Assembly (NCBI GenBank): GCA_025751475.1
Contig: JAOWLD010000004.1
Location: 62,001 to 126,000, forward strand
DNA length: 64,000 nucleotides
Reading direction: 5' to 3'
From: Rhodobacteraceae bacterium XHP0102
GTDB taxonomy: Bacteria; Pseudomonadota; Alphaproteobacteria; Rhodobacterales; Rhodobacteraceae
In this document: one piece after another, positions 23,221 to 32,154 of the stretch
How the letters are laid out: the number at the start of each line of letters is the position of its first letter
Position numbering within the stretch: position 1 is the stretch's first letter
Made by a program: the position numbers and the translations under genes
Notes under the pieces: model-generated
What the model saw: the letters and a program-made list of their open reading frames with translations, nothing else
Database searches by the model: none
Told to the model about the DNA's origin: nothing

Positions 23221-23941
23221 GGATGAAAACCCCGTGAATTTCTTTAATCTGTCATATGGGGTATTGCCGCGCTGCGGCAAGGGGCGGTTTTGGTCTGCGG
23301 CGGTAACGGCATTGACGCTTTCGTTTTTGCCGCAGGCTGTGATGGCGCAGATGCAGATCGTGGCATTGGGCGACAGCCTGACCCAAGGCTATGGCCTGCC
23401 GCAAGGCGAAGGATTTGTGCCGCAGCTGCAAAATTGGTTGACCGCACAGGGCCATGATGTGGAGGTTATCAATGCGGGTGTTTCTGGGGATACCACGGCA
23501 GGGGGACTGTCACGGATTGACTGGACGCTTACACCTGAGGTTGACGCCGTGATCGTGGCATTGGGTGGTAATGATCTGTTGCGCGGAATTCCCCCCGCCA
23601 CAAGCCGCGCCAATCTGGACGCGATTTTGCAAACAATAACGGCACGGGATTTGCCCGTTCTTTTGGTGGGCTTGCCTGCACCTAACAATTACGGCCCCGC
23701 GTTCAAGGCGGAGTTTGATGCGATCTACCCAGAGCTTGCCGCCACATATGACACAGGGCTTGTGCCTGACTTTCTTGGGCCAATTGCAGATGCCGCCGAG
23801 GCAGACCGCCAACAAGCACTGGCGGATTTGATGCAGGCCGATGGTATCCATCCCAACGCGCAGGGCGTTGCATTGATGGTCGCCGCCATCGGCCCCGAGG
23901 TTACGGCGTTGATCGCCCGCGCAGCAGAAGATACCCCGTGA
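23219..23941 (+). CDS. tesA: SGNH-type arylesterase / lysophospholipase TesA
   Basis: The product is an exported GDSL hydrolase. It has block I LGDSLTQGYGLPQGEGF, with the nucleophilic Ser, block II VINAGVSGDTTAGG, block III GGNDLLRG, and block V DGIHPNAQG with catalytic Asp and His. A signal peptide (AAVTALTLSFLPQAVMAQ) is cut after AMA-like VMA. The start is unsure: the ATG at 23219 overlaps the divergent ybbA ATG, while GTG at 23234 or later codons would give a more normal signal peptide n-region. It is followed with a four-base overlap by a nitrilase gene. Confidence 0.9.
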   Translation: MDENPVNFFNLSYGVLPRCGKGRFWSAAVTALTLSFLPQAVMAQMQIVALGDSLTQGYGLPQGEGFVPQLQNWLTAQGHDVEVINAGVSGDTTAGGLSRIDWTLTPEVDAVIVALGGNDLLRGIPPATSRANLDAILQTITARDLPVLLVGLPAPNNYGPAFKAEFDAIYPELAATYDTGLVPDFLGPIADAAEADRQQALADLMQADGIHPNAQGVALMVAAIGPEVTALIARAAEDTP

Positions 23942-24819
23942 CCGAAGTTCAGAATAACCTGCGCGTGGCGGTGGGGCAGATGTGTTCCGCTGCCCGTCAT
24001 GACCCAAATATTGCTGTGATGCAGGATTTTGCACGCAATGCAGCCGCAGGTGGCGCTGATCTGTTGTGTCTGCCCGAGGTTGCGGGGCTGATGTGTCGGG
24101 ACCGTGCGAAGGCCGATGCACAGGTCATCACGGCGCAGGCTGATCCGTTCATCGCCGCGGCACGGGTGGCAGCGGCAGAACAGCGGATTTGGATTCAAGC
24201 AGGCAGCACGCCAGTCCGCAAACAGGGCTGTGAGAAATTTCGCAATCACGCAGTTTTGATCGCGCCTGATGGGGATTTGGTCGCGGAATACGACAAAATT
24301 CACCTGTTTGACATCGCGCTCGAAGGGCAGGCCCCGATTGGTGAATCCAACCGATTTGAAGCAGGCGATCGGGCGGTTGTGGTTGACACCCCTTGGGGGC
24401 CTTGGGGCATGAGCATTTGCTATGACATCCGTTTTGGCCACCTTCTGCGCGACTATGCAAAGGCGGGTGCCCGCCTGATTTTTGCACCATCCGCATTTAC
24501 CGTCCCAACGGGCCAAGCCCATTGGGAGGTGCTGCTGCGCGCGCGCGCTATTGAAACGGGGTGTTTCATCGTTGCGGCCGCACAATCGGGCACTCATGAA
24601 GATGGGCGCAGCACATATGGTCATTCACTTGTTGTCTCTCCATGGGGCGAGGTTTTGTGTGATGCAGGTGCCGCGGCACCACAGCTGATCTTTTGTGATC
24701 TTGACCTGAGCCGTGCGGACCATGCGCGCGCGCAAATTCCGAACCTGTCCAACGAAAGACCGTATGAGCTATCGCGCATAGATGCCCGCACCAAAGCGCG
24801 GGCGTGCAACGAAAGATAG
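23938..24819 (+). CDS. carbon-nitrogen hydrolase (nitrilase superfamily, Nit1/NitFhit-like)
   Basis: The 293-residue protein has the Glu-Lys-Cys triad of the nitrilase fold: Glu in LLCLPEVAG near residue 46, Lys in YDKIHLFDI near 119, and Cys in SICYDIRFGHLLRDYA near 160. The motifs best fit the Nit (deaminated glutathione amidase) branch, which repairs an aminotransferase side product. The start is a GTG at 23938, overlapping the tesA stop (GTGA). In other Rhodobacterales this gene usually follows grxC. Here it follows tesA, so the context has changed. Confidence 0.87.
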   Translation: MTEVQNNLRVAVGQMCSAARHDPNIAVMQDFARNAAAGGADLLCLPEVAGLMCRDRAKADAQVITAQADPFIAAARVAAAEQRIWIQAGSTPVRKQGCEKFRNHAVLIAPDGDLVAEYDKIHLFDIALEGQAPIGESNRFEAGDRAVVVDTPWGPWGMSICYDIRFGHLLRDYAKAGARLIFAPSAFTVPTGQAHWEVLLRARAIETGCFIVAAAQSGTHEDGRSTYGHSLVVSPWGEVLCDAGAAAPQLIFCDLDLSRADHARAQIPNLSNERPYELSRIDARTKARACNER

Positions 24820-25052
24820 CGCAACCTACCGCTAAGATGATCCGCCGTGCCCTCGTCCTGCGCCGCAGTTGGGGATAGATTAACCATATCGAAAGCGCAT
24901 CGGGACTTGCCAAAGTTGAGGTGGTTTTCGTTTCGAGATGACGGATGATTGAGCGGTAGAGTTTTGGCGAGTGCCTGTCATCTTGGGTAGTGTTGTGAAC
25001 GAGTAATTTGTTTTCGCTCCGTTAACTGGTCACTTTGTGCTGATGGTGGCAT

Positions 25053-25082
25053 GGCGCGGGAGGTTTTCCTCTCGCGCCTTTT

Positions 25083-25084
<2 letters not shown>
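25053..25084 (+). terminator. strong intrinsic terminator downstream of the nitrilase gene
   Basis: GGCGCGGGAGG (25053-25063) and CCTCTCGCGCC (25068-25078) form an 11-pair stem with a TTTT loop, followed by six T (25079-25084). It works on the plus strand, 234 bases past the nitrilase stop, and overlaps the stop codon of the convergent repeat-protein gene. The region 24820-25052 has no coding potential. Confidence 0.88.
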
Positions 25085-25961
<877 letters not shown>

Positions 25962-26067
25962 GATCTGATCCTTTTTTGCAACTCGCCGTAACTTGGCATC
26001 GCATTTGCAAGTTCTGCGCCAGATGGGCCGAGGTCCGTGACATCCCCTTTGCGAAGGAGAAAATCAG

Positions 26068-26454
26068 ATGAGTAGCATTGCCGATCACATCGCCCCTTTT
26101 GCCGATGCTTTGACTTTGCGCGAGCGGCGCAATGGAATTTTGGCATCCAATATCGCCAATGCCGCAACCCCTGGTTACAAGGCGCGCGATTTTGACTTCG
26201 AGGCCGCCTATGCGGCGGAGCGTGGACTCGGCGCAGGGTTGCTTCGCAGTGATCCGCGGCATTTTGGGGCAGGCCAAGCAGGCCAAATGCAGCTTGGCTA
26301 TCGCGTGGCCGTTAATCCTTCGTTGGATGGCAACACCGTTGAGGCCTCTGTGGAGCAAATGGAATTTGCGGAAAACAGTCTGCGCTACCAGACCAGTTTG
26401 ATGTTTCTCAATCGCCGTATTTCAGGACTGATGACCGCGATGCGGGGGGAATAG
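26068..26454 (+). CDS. flgB: flagellar basal-body rod protein FlgB
   Basis: FlgB forms the proximal rod of the flagellum. The 128-residue protein has the conserved rod-protein N-terminus with [20 protein letters not shown] near 20-39. Its C-terminal heptad region [20 protein letters not shown] is typical. An AAGGAGA site precedes the ATG. It is the first of four flg genes on the plus strand in the order B-C-D-E. Confidence 0.94.
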
Positions 26455-26457
26455 GAT

Positions 26458-26871
26458 ATGGCGATCAACTCCGTTTTTGAGCTTGCCGCCCGCGCGATGA
26501 ATGCGCAGATGGTGCGGATCAACACAGTCGCCAGCAATTTGGCCAATGCTGATGCGGTCAGCGGCGATGCGCAAAACGCCTATCGCCCGATCCGCCCCGT
26601 GTTTGAAACGGTTTATCAAAACAGCGTCCGCAAGGACGGTTTGGCCAGTGTCAAGGTGGATCAGATTGTCACCCTTGATCGCGCGCCCGAGCGGGTCCAT
26701 GCGCCTGACCGCCCGATGGCAGATGCCGATGGCTATATCTATCGCGCGGCCGTCTCGCCCGAGGAAGAAATGGTCGAGATGATGGATGCCTCGCGCCAAT
26801 ACCAAAACACACTCGAAGTGGTGTCGACCATTCGCACCTTGATGGCGCGCACGATGTCTATGGGTCAGTAG
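26458..26871 (+). CDS. flgC: flagellar basal-body rod protein FlgC
   Basis: The 137-residue protein is FlgC, a rod component next to FlgB. It has the N-terminal ARAMNAQMVRINTVASNLAN near 11-30 and a C-terminus with EEMVEMMDASRQYQNTLEVV, both typical. Only three bases separate it from flgB and eleven from flgD, so the genes form one transcript. Confidence 0.94.
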   Translation: MAINSVFELAARAMNAQMVRINTVASNLANADAVSGDAQNAYRPIRPVFETVYQNSVRKDGLASVKVDQIVTLDRAPERVHAPDRPMADADGYIYRAAVSPEEEMVEMMDASRQYQNTLEVVSTIRTLMARTMSMGQ

Positions 26872-26882
26872 GGGGATTACGG

Positions 26883-27566
26883 ATGACTGAGCTTGCTTCA
26901 CCCGTCAACACTGCTGCACAACTGCGCCAATCACAGGCGTTGCAGCCGCAACGCCAGACCGGCACATCGGATTTGGGGCAGGATGATTTCCTGCGCTTGA
27001 TGACCACCCAACTCAAGAACCAAGACCCGTTTCAGCCAATGGAAAACGGCGAATTTCTTGCGCAGATGGCGCAATTTTCAACCGTATCGGGGCTGGATCG
27101 GGTCAACGAAACCTTGGGGGCAATTTCAGGGCAGATTTCGGCCTCGCGGATTGCAACGGGCTCATCCTTCCTGGGGCAGCAGGTTCTTGTTCCAGGGGCC
27201 GTTGCACGACCTGATGCGGAAGGGGCCATCACGGGTGTTGTGGACCTCCCACAATCCGCACAATCGGTCTTGGTGCGATATTTCGATCCGCAATCTGGCA
27301 CGGAATTGCACCGTCAAGAGTTGGGGGCGCAACCTGCGGGGCTGATGGGCTTTGGGTGGCATGACTTGCCCGCTGATCTGGCCGCCGCACGCGCCCCAGT
27401 CCGCATCACCATCACAGCGCAAAGCGAAGGCCAAAGCACTGATCTGGGCGCTTCGGTCTATGCGCGCGTGACAGGTGTAGAATTGGGGCAAGAGGCGGGC
27501 AGCCTTGCGCTGCGGGTTGAAGATTATGGCTTGCGCGACAGCCGCGAGATAACCGCGCTGCGCTGA
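26883..27566 (+). CDS. flgD: flagellar hook capping protein FlgD
   Basis: FlgD caps the growing hook. The 227-residue protein has the conserved N-terminal DFLRLMTTQLKNQDPFQPME near residues 37-56, followed by FLAQMAQFSTVSGLDRVNE, and the later FlgD Ig/tudor-like part (VLVRYFDPQSGTELHRQELG). It needs a functional FlgE hook protein to act on. The next gene, flgE, appears truncated, so this operon may be decaying. Confidence 0.92.
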   Translation: MTELASPVNTAAQLRQSQALQPQRQTGTSDLGQDDFLRLMTTQLKNQDPFQPMENGEFLAQMAQFSTVSGLDRVNETLGAISGQISASRIATGSSFLGQQVLVPGAVARPDAEGAITGVVDLPQSAQSVLVRYFDPQSGTELHRQELGAQPAGLMGFGWHDLPADLAAARAPVRITITAQSEGQSTDLGASVYARVTGVELGQEAGSLALRVEDYGLRDSREITALR

Positions 27567-27599
27567 TCTGCGTTGGCGCTTGAGAAGAAGGAAACCAGA

Positions 27600-28631
27600 A
27601 TGTCATTTTTCACAGCCCTGTCAGGCTTAAAGGCCGCGCAGACCGATATCTCTTCGACCTCCAACAACATCGCCAATGTGGCCACGCTGGGCTATCATGG
27701 CAGCCGTGTGGAGTTTTCAGATATCTACACCAGTTCCCCACAGGCGAACCCGCGCACTTCGGTTGGGTCAGGTGTGCAAATCTCGCGCATTTCGCGCAGT
27801 TTCGCACAAGGCTCTATGACCTCGACCCAGAACACATTGGATATGGCGATCCAAGGCGCGGGGTTCTTTCGCGTTGAAGCAGGCAAGGAGGGCGGCGCGG
27901 CTGTCTATACCCGCGCAGGGGCTTTCGGCATGGACAACGAAGGGTTCGTTGTGAACTCCAAAGGACAATATTTGACAGGCTACAAAACCGCGGCGGATGG
28001 ATCACCGCTTAATCTTGGGACCGCCGCGCCGTTGCAAGTGCCGCTCAAACAAGGCACGGCCAAGGCCACCGCCAATCTAAGCTTTGGCGCGTCCTTTCCC
28101 GTGGGTGTGATGGGTCAAGCGGGGCAAGCCACCGTGCCGCCCGCAGCCTTTGATCCAACAAATGCACAAAGCTATGCTTTTGCAACGCCGTTGAACCTGC
28201 TCGATCCTGAAGGTCAGCCAATGGACGCGGTCGGATATTTTGCCTTGGCAGACACGCCCGACCTTCTAGACCCTGCCACGCGCTATCAGTTTCACTTGGT
28301 GGTCAATGGTATCGAAGTTGCACCAGATGCGGCGGCAGCGGGGGAAACCTTGCTGGAGTTTGATGCCGATGGGTTCCTGGTCGGTGGCGGTGCGCCAGAA
28401 TTCACCTTCGAGGGGCGCCCCTTGGCCTTTGATCTGCGCCAATCACAATTGGATGCTGCCCGCAGTGCGATGCAGGTCAGCACGATGCAAGGCGATGGCG
28501 AGGTTGCGCGCAAATTGTCGATGATGGAATTGGACGGGGACGGCGTTCTTTGGGCCTCGATCAGCGGCTCGAGGCCGCGGTTCGGAAGGAACTCACGAAT
28601 GGCGGAATTGACCACAGAAATACAGCTGTAG
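27600..28631 (+). pseudogene. flgE: flagellar hook protein FlgE, 3'-truncated
   Basis: From the ATG at 27600 (site AAGGAA upstream) the frame has the hook-protein start FFTALSGLKAAQTDISSTSN, the AIQGAGFFRV motif, and the D1/D2 hook domains. Homology-like sequence ends around LDGDGVLWASIS, near 28565. The remaining about 20 codons are unrelated. The conserved C-terminal part of FlgE, including the helix that polymerises the hook (usually VDLA/EL..LI..Q..YQAN..), is absent. The total of 343 residues is short against roughly 420 in relatives. The tail overlaps a truncated kinase gene on the other strand. Loss of the C-terminal helix should prevent hook assembly. Confidence 0.8.
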
Positions 28632-28951
28632 AAAATGTCAAAGCGCAGTTTTGCAAAACGAAAACTATCAGATTCAATCTGGCCATTGCCTTGCTCTTGT
28701 GCCGCCTGATCGGCGCGTGTCAGCGCCAAAGCCAGCGCAAGGTAGTCGACCTCAATTTGGGACAGGATCCAGCCTTGGTTGTCGCTGTTTGCAGCGCGAA
28801 ACTCTTCGATCCGGCGCTCGAATTTCAATGCGGAGGCCAAAAGGCCCACGCAAGATACAAGCAACAGGATCAATAAGAAAAACCCAGTGCTGCGTCTCCC
28901 GCGGACCCCTTGATTGGCGCTTGACCGCTTTGTGGCGGCCGAGAAGATCAT
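28570..28951 (-). pseudogene. sensor histidine kinase, N-terminal fragment
   Basis: From the ATG at 28951, overlapping the oxidoreductase stop by four bases, the frame gives a membrane helix (TGFFLLILLLVSCVGLLASA, 22-41). A sensory segment follows, with FRAANSDNQGWILSQIEVDY and KLRFDIFYSCISVVNSAIRE up to about residue 120. This resembles the N-terminus of a roseobacter sensor kinase as I recall it. After that the frame runs antisense to flgE, with no HisKA or ATPase domain. The adjoining response regulator at 29831 has thus probably lost its partner. The exact break lies near 28565-28600. Confidence 0.7.
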
Positions 28952-29568
28952 TGCGCGGCGGCCTCGATTGCCACCAATTGCCAGATCGAGAAAGCGTAAA
29001 CCGTCTCAGTCCTAAGGTCTGGGCTGGAGTCATATGGGAACACCAACCAAAGCGGGCCTTTGTCACGGATCGAAAATGCTTCGCCATTTATGCGATTGGC
29101 AACGATTGGATAATCCGCGCTCATTGCGCTGCAAGGCATCTCAACTGCGTAATCATTCGCCGCAACCATTCGCAGGGAGGGGGCGGTGAGGGCTGTGTCT
29201 TCGGTCGCGTCCCCTAACCCGAAGAAACCCATCACCCGCGCGATCACGCCCGCGTCCTCGGCTTCGTCTGTCGATTGATCCGCAATACAAGGGTGATCAG
29301 CCCCAAACCCTGTTGCCGTCAACACATCAATCAAGGCAGGGCCAGAAAATTCCTGCGGGCCTTCCGTCCAGATTGTTGTGGTCGTAAATGTTTTTTGCGG
29401 CAATGCCAGAAGCGCTGCATCATCCAAGAGGGTCGCCTCTACAGCGGCATCTGGTGTGATGGTTAATTCTGCATCGGCGGCCAAAGCGCTTTGGCCATTT
29501 GCTGTAAGAATAGCGCCGCAAAGCATCACACTTGCTGCGCCGCGAAAGAATACGCGGTTCAAGGTCAT
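28948..29568 (-). CDS. exported molybdopterin-oxidoreductase-like domain protein
   Basis: The roughly 206-residue protein has a signal peptide (RVFFRGAASVMLCGAILTANGQSALA). Its body includes KTFTTTTIWTEGPQEFSGPALID and PLWLVFPYDSSPDLRTET, like the sulfite-oxidase-type molybdopterin fold often found beside a sensor kinase and LuxR regulator in Rhodobacteraceae. The usual cofactor Cys is not clearly seen, so it may be a sensory rather than catalytic protein. The ATG at 29568 is preferred because the longer frame would begin before the signal peptide. A truncated kinase gene follows. Confidence 0.7.
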   Translation of the reverse strand: MTLNRVFFRGAASVMLCGAILTANGQSALAADAELTITPDAAVEATLLDDAALLALPQKTFTTTTIWTEGPQEFSGPALIDVLTATGFGADHPCIADQSTDEAEDAGVIARVMGFFGLGDATEDTALTAPSLRMVAANDYAVEMPCSAMSADYPIVANRINGEAFSIRDKGPLWLVFPYDSSPDLRTETVYAFSIWQLVAIEAAAQ

Positions 29569-29830
29569 TTTTATCCATCCCAGTCTAGCTTGCAAAATAA
29601 TATACCATCCATGTTGTTTTTTTATGGTATCGAAAGATAGTTATACCTATCTATCGTTTATAATTTTCCGAGTAAGTATAGGGGTGCTGCCAAAGACTGG
29701 CACGAATTTTGAAATGATAGTCATATAGAATAACTCTATATGAAACTTGTGTATTTCGTATACAGAGTTGTCCACGTTGGACAGTGCCGCGCGATTTGGA
29801 AGATGTAGACGTATCTATTGGGAGATTAAA

Positions 29831-30469
29831 ATGTCCGATGAGACTGGAGGCGACACTGTCCTCAAAGTGTTGATCGCGGATGATCATCGCTTGTTGGGTG
29901 AAGCGGTCGCGAACCTTTTGAAGACGGGCGCAGGATATACTGTGCGCACAAGCGAAAGTTACGAAACCACCCTGACCGCCTTGAGCGAAGCACGGTTTGA
30001 CATTGTGCTGTTGGATTTAAAGATGCCCGGGATGGTGGGGCTGGCCTCGGTGCGGACTGTCATCGAGAAGGCAGTAAACGGCAAAGTGGTGTTGTTTACA
30101 GGGCAGGTTGATCGGCATTTTCTCAATTCGGCGCTGGAATTGGGCGTCAAAGGTCTGATCCCGAAAACCATGCCGTTGCAATCACTGGTCTCGGTGATCC
30201 AATTGATTCAATCGGGGCAGGTCTTTGTGCCCATGCATGATACGGTCGCGCCCATACCGCAGGCAGGACAAAGCGATGTTCCGCTGACAGAGAAAGAATT
30301 CTTCGTGCTGCGTTTGGCGGCGGATGGTCTCACCAACAAGGAAATCGCCCGTGACATGGGCACGACCGAAGTGACGGTGAAGATGCATATGCGGTCGGTC
30401 TGCAAGAAGCTTGGCGCGCGCAACCGCGCCCATGCGGCGATCATCAGCCGCGAGCGCGCCATTTTGTAG
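29831..30469 (+). CDS. LuxR/NarL-type response regulator
   Basis: The 212-residue protein has a receiver domain with the acidic pair in VLIADDHRLLGEAV, phospho-acceptor Asp in DIVLLDLKMPG, and conserved Lys in GLIPKTMP. A LuxR HTH follows (LTEKEFFVLRLAADGLTNKE and TTEVTVKMHMRSVCKKLGA). The ATG at 29831 has GGGAG just upstream. It is divergent from the exported oxidoreductase and its kinase, an arrangement in which all three would form one signalling unit. The kinase is truncated here, so the regulator may be orphaned or receive phosphate from another source. Confidence 0.9.
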   Translation: MSDETGGDTVLKVLIADDHRLLGEAVANLLKTGAGYTVRTSESYETTLTALSEARFDIVLLDLKMPGMVGLASVRTVIEKAVNGKVVLFTGQVDRHFLNSALELGVKGLIPKTMPLQSLVSVIQLIQSGQVFVPMHDTVAPIPQAGQSDVPLTEKEFFVLRLAADGLTNKEIARDMGTTEVTVKMHMRSVCKKLGARNRAHAAIISRERAIL

Positions 30470-30502
30470 CGTGGTTTTGGATGGCGGTTGGTCTGAGATA
30501 AT

Positions 30503-30577
30503 TGGCTGGGGTGGTAGGATTCGAACCTACGGTACGCGGTACCAAAAACCGTTGCCTTACCACTTGGCTACACCCCA
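30503..30577 (-). tRNA. tRNA-Gln (anticodon TTG)
   Basis: On the minus strand the sequence begins TGGGGTGTAGCCAAGTGGTA, has anticodon loop TTTTGGT with TTG, a T arm GGTTCGAATCC, and a 3' end pairing CACCCCA followed by G and an encoded CCA. All four arms fold and the length is 75 with CCA. Confidence 0.97.
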
Positions 30578-30657: not shown

Positions 30658-32154
30658 TCAAATCGTCTGATCATAGGCCCCCACATCGGGTTCTGTGCGG
30701 ATAATTCTGTCGAGGTCATGAAAGATCGCGCGCATTTCCGCTTCGCTTTCGGGGCTTTCACAAACAACCACCAAATTCGGCGTGTTGGAGGAAGCACGCA
30801 CAAGGCCCCAGCCGCCATTCTCTAGCATCACCCGTGCGCCGTTGACGGTGACAACATCGACAATCTTCTGTCCGCCAAGTGCGCCGCCGTCAGAGTGCAG
30901 CTTGGTCAGCTTGGCGACCAGTCGCGCCAAGACGTCGTATTTCAGCGTGTCCGCGCAATAGGGTGACATGGTGGGCGTGGCATAGGTCTGCGGCAAGGCG
31001 CGGCGCAGGTCTGCCATCGACATTTCTGGGTTGCGATTCATCAATTTGCAAATTTCAACCGCGACCCGCATCCCGCAGTCATAGCCCCGCCCCAAGGGGG
31101 GCGCGAAGAAATAGTGGCCCGACTTCTCGAACCCCGCAAGCGCGCCCAATTCATGCACGCGGCGTTTCATGTGGCTGTGGCCCGTTTTCCAGTAATCCGC
31201 CCGCGCGCCCAAGGCGCGCAGTTCAGGGTCAGAGGCATACAGCCCCGTGGATTTTACATCCGCCACGAAAATCGCACCCTTGTGATGCTTGGCCAAATCA
31301 CGGGCGAGGATCACGCCCATCTTATCGGCAAAAATTTCTTCGCCTTCATTGTCCACCACGCCACAACGATCCCCATCGCCATCAAACCCAAGCGCAAAAT
31401 CGGCAGATGTCTGGCGCACCGTATCGGCCATGTCATGCAGCATTTCCAAGGCTTCTGGATTCGGGTTGTAATGGGGAAACGTGTAATCGAGTGTATTGTA
31501 AGAGGGGATCACCTCTACCCCCATCCGCGCGAATAATTCAGGCGCAAAGGCCGAGGCCGTGCCATTGCCCGTTGCGCAGACCACGCGCAGCTTGCGGGTC
31601 ATTTTGAAGTCGCCAACGAGGTCATCCAAATAAGCCTCTTTGACCCCATCGACAAATTCATACGCACCGCCCCCGCGCGAAACCCCTTCGCCGCCAAGCA
31701 CGATGTCACGCAGGCGCGCCATCTCTACAGGGCCATGGGTGAGGGGCTTTTCAAACCCCATCTTTACGCCCGTCCAGCCATTTGGATTATGGCTGGCTGT
31801 CACCATGGCCACGGCGGGTGCATCAAGGTGAAATTGCGCGAAATAGGCCATCGGGCTTAGGGCAGGGCCAATATCCCGCACTTTGATCCCCGCTTGCATC
31901 AAGCCCAAGATCAGCGCGTTTTTGACCGATAGAGAATAGTCGCGGTAGTCATTGGCGACCACGATTTCGGGTCGAATTCCCGCCTCATGCATCTGTGTGC
32001 CAAGCCCTAGACCCAAGGCTGTAACACCTGGCAGGTTGATTTCCTCGGGAAACCGCCAACGCGCGTCATATTCGCGAAACCCCGTTGGTTTGATCATCGG
32101 GTCGCGCAGGAATTCCCATGTGTTCGGCGTAACCTCGGCAAGGGGTTTCATCAT
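30658..32154 (-). CDS. phosphomannomutase / phosphoglucomutase
   Basis: The 498-residue enzyme of the alpha-D-phosphohexomutase family moves phosphate between C6 and C1 of mannose or glucose. It has the phosphoserine loop TASHNPNGWTG near residues 119-129, the magnesium loop GFDGDGDRCG near 255-264, and sugar and phosphate motifs GHSHMKRR and RASSNTPNLVV near the C-terminus. It lies at the end of the kpsT-kpsE-kdsA block on the same strand, so it probably supplies hexose-1-phosphate for capsule or LPS sugar nucleotides. Two adjacent ATGs (32154, 32151) are possible starts. Confidence 0.92.
   Translation of the reverse strand: MMKPLAEVTPNTWEFLRDPMIKPTGFREYDARWRFPEEINLPGVTALGLGLGTQMHEAGIRPEIVVANDYRDYSLSVKNALILGLMQAGIKVRDIGPALSPMAYFAQFHLDAPAVAMVTASHNPNGWTGVKMGFEKPLTHGPVEMARLRDIVLGGEGVSRGGGAYEFVDGVKEAYLDDLVGDFKMTRKLRVVCATGNGTASAFAPELFARMGVEVIPSYNTLDYTFPHYNPNPEALEMLHDMADTVRQTSADFALGFDGDGDRCGVVDNEGEEIFADKMGVILARDLAKHHKGAIFVADVKSTGLYASDPELRALGARADYWKTGHSHMKRRVHELGALAGFEKSGHYFFAPPLGRGYDCGMRVAVEICKLMNRNPEMSMADLRRALPQTYATPTMSPYCADTLKYDVLARLVAKLTKLHSDGGALGGQKIVDVVTVNGARVMLENGGWGLVRASSNTPNLVVVCESPESEAEMRAIFHDLDRIIRTEPDVGAYDQTI

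Follow-up and report, generated by a model that had tools for sequence, protein, structure and literature searches.

Truncated flgE and sensor kinase genes meet at a probable deletion scar in the remnant of a second flagellar gene cluster of Rhodobacteraceae bacterium XHP0102

Results

The DNA analysed here, called the window throughout, is a stretch of 64,000 nucleotides (G000:C4:62001-126000) from a genome of 2.68 Mb in nine contigs that is estimated to be 99.98% complete. Between a nitrilase-like and a phosphomannomutase-like gene it carries flgB, flgC and flgD, the 5' part of flgE, the 5' part of a hybrid sensor kinase gene, a small partner gene of the kinase and a gene for a LuxR-type response regulator (Table 1). 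The truncated flgE on the plus strand and the truncated kinase gene on the minus strand meet tail to tail, and the two open reading frames together span positions 27600-28951.

Table 1. Positions of the genes and features at the flgE/kinase locus in the window
Feature	Position	Strand	Remarks
Nitrilase/amidase-like gene, left flank	23938..24819	+	named by eye; aligned in 3/3 sister genomes
Acidic, proline-rich ORF	25083..25961	-	divergent from flgB
flgB	26068..26454	+	intact frame
flgC	26458..26871	+	intact frame
flgD	26883..27566	+	intact frame
5' part of flgE	27600..28568	+	~323 codons, without PF06429; open to 28631 on foreign sequence; Pfam, alignment to relatives
Junction interval of the probable deletion scar	28560..28600	.	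homology ends of flgE and kinase gene
5' part of hybrid sensor kinase gene	28598..28951	-	118 codons by best match (109-123 over eight relatives); open to 28292
Kinase partner gene	28948..29595	-	intact frame; relatives match PF00174 (molybdopterin oxidoreductase domain)
LuxR-type response regulator	29831..30469	+	PF00072 and PF00196; intact, no complete kinase adjoining
tRNA-Gln(ttg), right edge	30503..30577	-	alignment of sister genome G002 resumes at 30500
Phosphomannomutase-like gene, right flank	30658..32154	-	named by eye; protein 92-96% identical in G001-G003

The flgE frame starts with an ATG, and its homology to relatives ends at about residue 323, in agreement with the initial annotation, which had the FlgE-like sequence stop near 28565. 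The last ~20 residues of the frame are antisense to the kinase gene. Pfam detected PF00460 (N-terminal rod domain), PF22692 and PF07559 (FlgE_D2) in the window FlgE, the first and the last of these being expected of a hook protein. The C-terminal PF06429 was not found, so that the earlier description of a FlgE without its C-terminus was correct; all four domains are present in the FlgE of a relative (G030), to whose cluster the window FlgE is 46% identical over its length. All eight aligned FlgE relatives extend 97-98 residues past window residue 323, and flgF follows flgE in each of the nine gene-mapped stretches having flgE.

The kinase gene likewise starts with an ATG. The point at which it loses homology varies among eight relatives from residue 109 to residue 123 (28625 to 28583). 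The gene is cut after about residue 109-127, which bears out the initial placement of the kinase N-terminus up to about 28570-28600, and beyond the end of homology its frame runs antisense to flgE. The ORFs of the eight relatives are 831-892 aa long, and the one relative scanned with Pfam (G264) has PAS, HisKA, HATPase and receiver domains. The 127-aa remnant gave no Pfam match, and the HisKA, HATPase_c and receiver domains of a hybrid histidine kinase are all missing from it. Since relatives of both genes continue well past the cuts, the view that two truncated genes meet here holds.

A 20-nt inverted repeat flanks the junction (28487-28506 in flgE, 28675-28694 in the kinase gene); the arms are 17/20 complementary and 168 nt apart. 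This strength was reached by 3 of 300 dinucleotide shuffles and, among 105 tiles of the window, only in the tile holding the repeat itself. As evidence the repeat is weak; it was sought after the fact. The longest direct repeat within 28300-28900 measures 12 nt. Among the loci compared, none outside the window's own genome contained the 61-base junction sequence.

The acidic ORF upstream of flgB contains a perfect tandem repeat of the hexamer CTCTGG (25392-25519, 21.3 copies), which encodes (Glu-Pro)n and is likely a length-variable stretch. An ORF of like make-up, as judged by eye, stands divergent from flgB in all seven relatives read.

The N-terminal part of the kinase gave 15 matches in 12 genomes, from which 12 loci were taken, one per genome. 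In 11 of these loci, one of them that of the window, a relative of the partner gene adjoins the kinase; nine of the 12 have a luxR gene near it within the short flanks examined. PF00174 was detected in seven of eight proteins of the partner type, three of them above the curated cut-off; the eighth, without any Pfam match, is the window's own. The window LuxR combines a receiver with a GerE helix-turn-helix domain, as expected of the LuxR/NarL type. No complete kinase adjoins its gene, in line with the earlier claim that the regulator has been deprived of its kinase. The kinase, the PF00174-like protein and the LuxR regulator may form a sensory module, part of which would have a molybdopterin fold.

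We searched the window's genome for the end of FlgE, the kinase core, FlgI of the window type and FliD. Neither of the two parts that the initial annotation had regarded as missing was found. For the FlgE end, only stretches of 32% (E 3e-13) and 25% (E 7e-4) identity inside a flagellar cluster on contig C2 and one at E 0.145 were obtained, and for the kinase core the best of 16 kinase matches was 32% identical and belonged to a separate 613-aa kinase. FlgI was represented by a single copy, 42% identical, in the C2 cluster, and FliD was absent from all four genomes of the genus in a search that was positive in 3 of 14 controls. We rejected a displacement of the kinase core to C2:314890-316050; judged by eye, the 613-aa protein there is a separate hybrid kinase that has its own N-terminus and lies among other genes. 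A second weak match to the N-terminal part of the kinase lies at C2:306725 (E 0.03).

The flagellar set on C2 (about 96-119 kb), which appears to be fla1-like, includes FlgE and FlgK with PF06429, an FlgI and the sole FlhA of the genome; a complete cluster, in the sense of FlhA together with an FlgI of the same type, was not found for the window genes. This second FlgE (C2:117527-118825) carries PF00460, FlgE_D2 and the C-terminal PF06429, and the window FlgE is at most 39% identical to the C2 stretches. The original proposal that DNA was deleted or inverted stands in part. DNA is missing, and a simple inversion is less favoured than loss, given that the searches of the remaining genome yielded no FlgE end, kinase core, FlgI of the window type or FliD.

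The flanks of the locus are syntenic with three sister genomes, in which blastn left window positions 24,897-29,363 (G003), 25,139-30,038 (G001) and 24,838-30,500 (G002) unmatched; the stretch from flgB to the truncated flgE is missing from all three at this locus. In G003, LuxR is complete and the PF00174-like protein is represented by its residues 10-86; the N-terminal part of the kinase gave no match there. G001 retains part of LuxR and a weak piece corresponding to the C-terminus of the divergent ORF (33%, E 1e-4), whereas G002 gave no match to the divergent ORF, the PF00174-like protein or LuxR. The window FlgE had no match in G001 or G002. The locus has thus been eroded in all three sister genomes, each time between other end points, and the leftovers in G001 and G003 keep the window's order. 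G001 is a 69%-complete metagenome bin in which the nitrilase-like and a kdsA-like frame also look broken, and from it we therefore used only the N-terminal luxR loss. It follows from these leftovers that at least G000, G001 and G003 share an ancestor with the locus at the same site; a gain by the window strain alone is rejected, as G001 and G003 keep other pieces of the locus. Among 80 phosphomannomutase-like loci in named genomes, some of them shortened by contig ends, a nitrilase-like match was found nearby only in two congeners.

The initial annotation had treated misassembly as an equal alternative: the contig would wrongly join two true gene parts, and the DNA between them would exist in the cell, having been dropped or placed elsewhere. 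Such an error would fit a genome in nine contigs and a junction sequence that, among the loci compared, is found only in the window's own genome. However, the missing parts sought lie on no contig of a genome estimated to be nearly complete, the synteny of the flanks extends to three sister genomes in which the middle is absent as well and two of which keep other leftovers of the same locus, and no direct repeat around the junction exceeds the 12 nt given above. The missing parts together with the synteny of the flanks argue for a true loss, and we consider misassembly very unlikely.

The flgE and kinase genes had been called unrelated, a claim that did not survive the comparison of gene neighbourhoods. 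The whole trio of kinase, PF00174-like and luxR genes lies within ~10 kb in 7 of 14 relative stretches with flgBCDE, a count not to be read as a rate, because the stretches were chosen from FlgD matches and several of them since the small protein was known nearby. In a further stretch (G066), only a 30% identical LuxR was found, ~15 kb away. In all seven relatives with trio and flgBCDE, the trio is found on the upstream side of flgB and never downstream of flgE; it is codirectional with flgB in four of them (G188, G394, G131, G078) and divergent in three (G377, G144, G264). Given these two orientations, it seems that the trio flips or gets re-inserted beside this type of flagellar cluster. In the window, unlike in all seven relatives, it lies on the flgE side; the gene order must therefore have been permuted at some time, and one simple deletion from the layouts compared is insufficient.

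A rearrangement beyond plain deletion, in which a tandem duplication, circularisation or fold-back inversion joined flgE to the kinase gene and flanking copies were then lost, would account for this permuted order, and the inverted repeat with one arm in each gene would suit it. The junction, though, falls between the repeat arms rather than within one, and the window order of the leftovers in G001 and G003 suggests that the permutation predates the deletion in the window strain. We regard this course of events, which is compatible with a deletion scar, as possible but rather doubtful.

Evolution of the surviving frames was assessed in a tree of FlgB, FlgC, FlgD and the N-terminal part of FlgE (16 taxa, 757 columns). 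The window branch measured 0.497 compared with 0.098-0.506 for the others, and 5 of 135 otherwise invariant sites were changed in the window proteins, compared with 1-7 of 131-137 in the others. Neither branch lengths nor invariant sites gave a sign of relaxed evolution; either the loss therefore happened recently or the genes remain under constraint. LuxR is 87% identical between G000 and G003, with a dN/dS of 0.041 at a dS of 2.1, a saturation that limits the comparison, and six flanking genes compared between the same genomes gave dN/dS values of 0.024-0.165.

These observations raise the question of whether the remnants are still used, with flgB, flgC, flgD or the FlgE fragment serving the other flagellum or another purpose and LuxR acting with another kinase. 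The intact, not faster evolving flgB, flgC and flgD frames would agree with such a use, as would the conservation of LuxR in G003, in which the kinase N-terminal part is unmatched. Yet the conservation may predate the losses, synonymous sites being saturated, and the stretch from flgB to the truncated flgE has disappeared from the three sister genomes, two of which lack any match to FlgE. Continued use, which is compatible with a deletion, is in our judgement improbable.

The single match to the window FlgE in G003 (L062:9796-11304, C1) shares 95% identity with the C2 FlgE of G000 (L057:7528-8826) over residues 1-401 of 432. It is cut 31 residues before its end, continues into unrelated sequence and is without PF06429, and the DNA likeness of G003 to the C2 region ends at the same place. 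FlhA was found neither in G003 nor in G002. It seems that the other, C2-like flagellar cluster was lost in G003, also with a break inside flgE.

Discussion

Our findings are very probably explained by the decay of a second flagellar gene cluster, in which the junction is the scar of a deletion. In the ancestor of the genus, the interval from the nitrilase-like to the phosphomannomutase-like gene would have contained a flagellar cluster, probably of the fla3 type (the FliD/sigma-54 kind), together with the three-gene sensory module of hybrid kinase, PF00174-like protein and LuxR regulator. A loss in the window strain that broke flgE after codon ~323 and the kinase gene after codon ~109-127 would have taken the remainder of both genes and, judging from relatives, flgF to flgL, the other flagellum genes sought having gone in the same or further events. 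The leftover flgB, flgC, flgD and part of flgE should be unable to build a hook, and the cell would rely on the flagellar cluster it retains elsewhere, while the break points of the erosion at this site would differ in the sister genomes. A single deletion is at odds with the trio lying on the flgB side in all seven relatives, which requires an earlier or additional rearrangement, and visible decay is at odds with surviving flgB, flgC, flgD and flgE frames without excess divergence.

Both 3'-truncated flgE copies, in G000 and G003, stand at a deletion edge with their sequence conserved. Loss of flagella seems to have stopped twice inside flgE, in the fla3-like cluster of G000 and the other cluster of G003. 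One reading is that the N-terminal part of FlgE, or the LuxR that both G000 and G003 keep as an orphan, was retained for use outside the flagellum. We think such a use highly improbable, and two such breaks are too few for a pattern.

As a scar of gene decay, the junction reflects ordinary genome decay, but caught midway and with sister species losing the same cluster too. The disappearance of a complex machine can be followed in stages within one genus, from one flagellar cluster plus the remnant of a second (G000), through a single truncated flgE with luxR (G003), to no match to the window FlgE and no FlhA (G002). This account concerns one strain, with flanking genes named by eye and, among its sisters, an incomplete genome with frame errors (G001). 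The LuxR regulator outlasts its own kinase and the adjoining flagellar genes, which makes the role of the trio testable.

Besides flgBCDEFGHI, flgK and flgL, the clusters of relatives include a transglycosylase and a sigma-54 activator, and some have FliD and FliS next to them. By this gene content and the nomenclature, the window remnant is probably of the fla3 type; a fla2-like label was dropped since the nomenclature and the FliD/sigma-54 content of the relatives point to fla3. We take the fla3 cluster of Cereibacter sphaeroides to be that of the R. sphaeroides Fla1 flagellum. The reference cluster of this type is that of strain 2.4.1 (RSP_0032-0083), as described in passages of PMC11974857 and PMC7277832. 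In their sigma-54 activator and, in some, FliD and FliS, the relatives' clusters resemble the Fla1 system with FleQ, FleT and FliD, as far as it is outlined in those parts of PMC7277832, whereas the window, compared by gene content, keeps only flgBCD and part of flgE.

A longer cluster of the relatives' type is borne on plasmid pOA238_118 of Octadecabacter arcticus 238 (NC_020909.1), where a divergent hypothetical ORF is followed by flgB, C, D, E, an F-like gene, G, H, I, a gene for a rod-binding protein, K and L, with fliD nearby. Its FlgE is 38% identical to the window FlgE N-terminal part over 247 aa, but the gene at the flgE position measures 4233 bases and, unlike in the window, no gene of the trio is named in the stretch read.

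The occurrence of fla1 and fla3 together in one genome is given for 14 strains in the relevant part of PMC11974857, where independent losses of fla1 in several Rhodobacterales clades are also proposed. The flgE/kinase scar is probably a further case of this already known loss of flagellar clusters; compared with the fla1 losses set out in that part of the source, the leftovers here are fla3-like and, together with those of the other cluster in a sister genome, can still be read.
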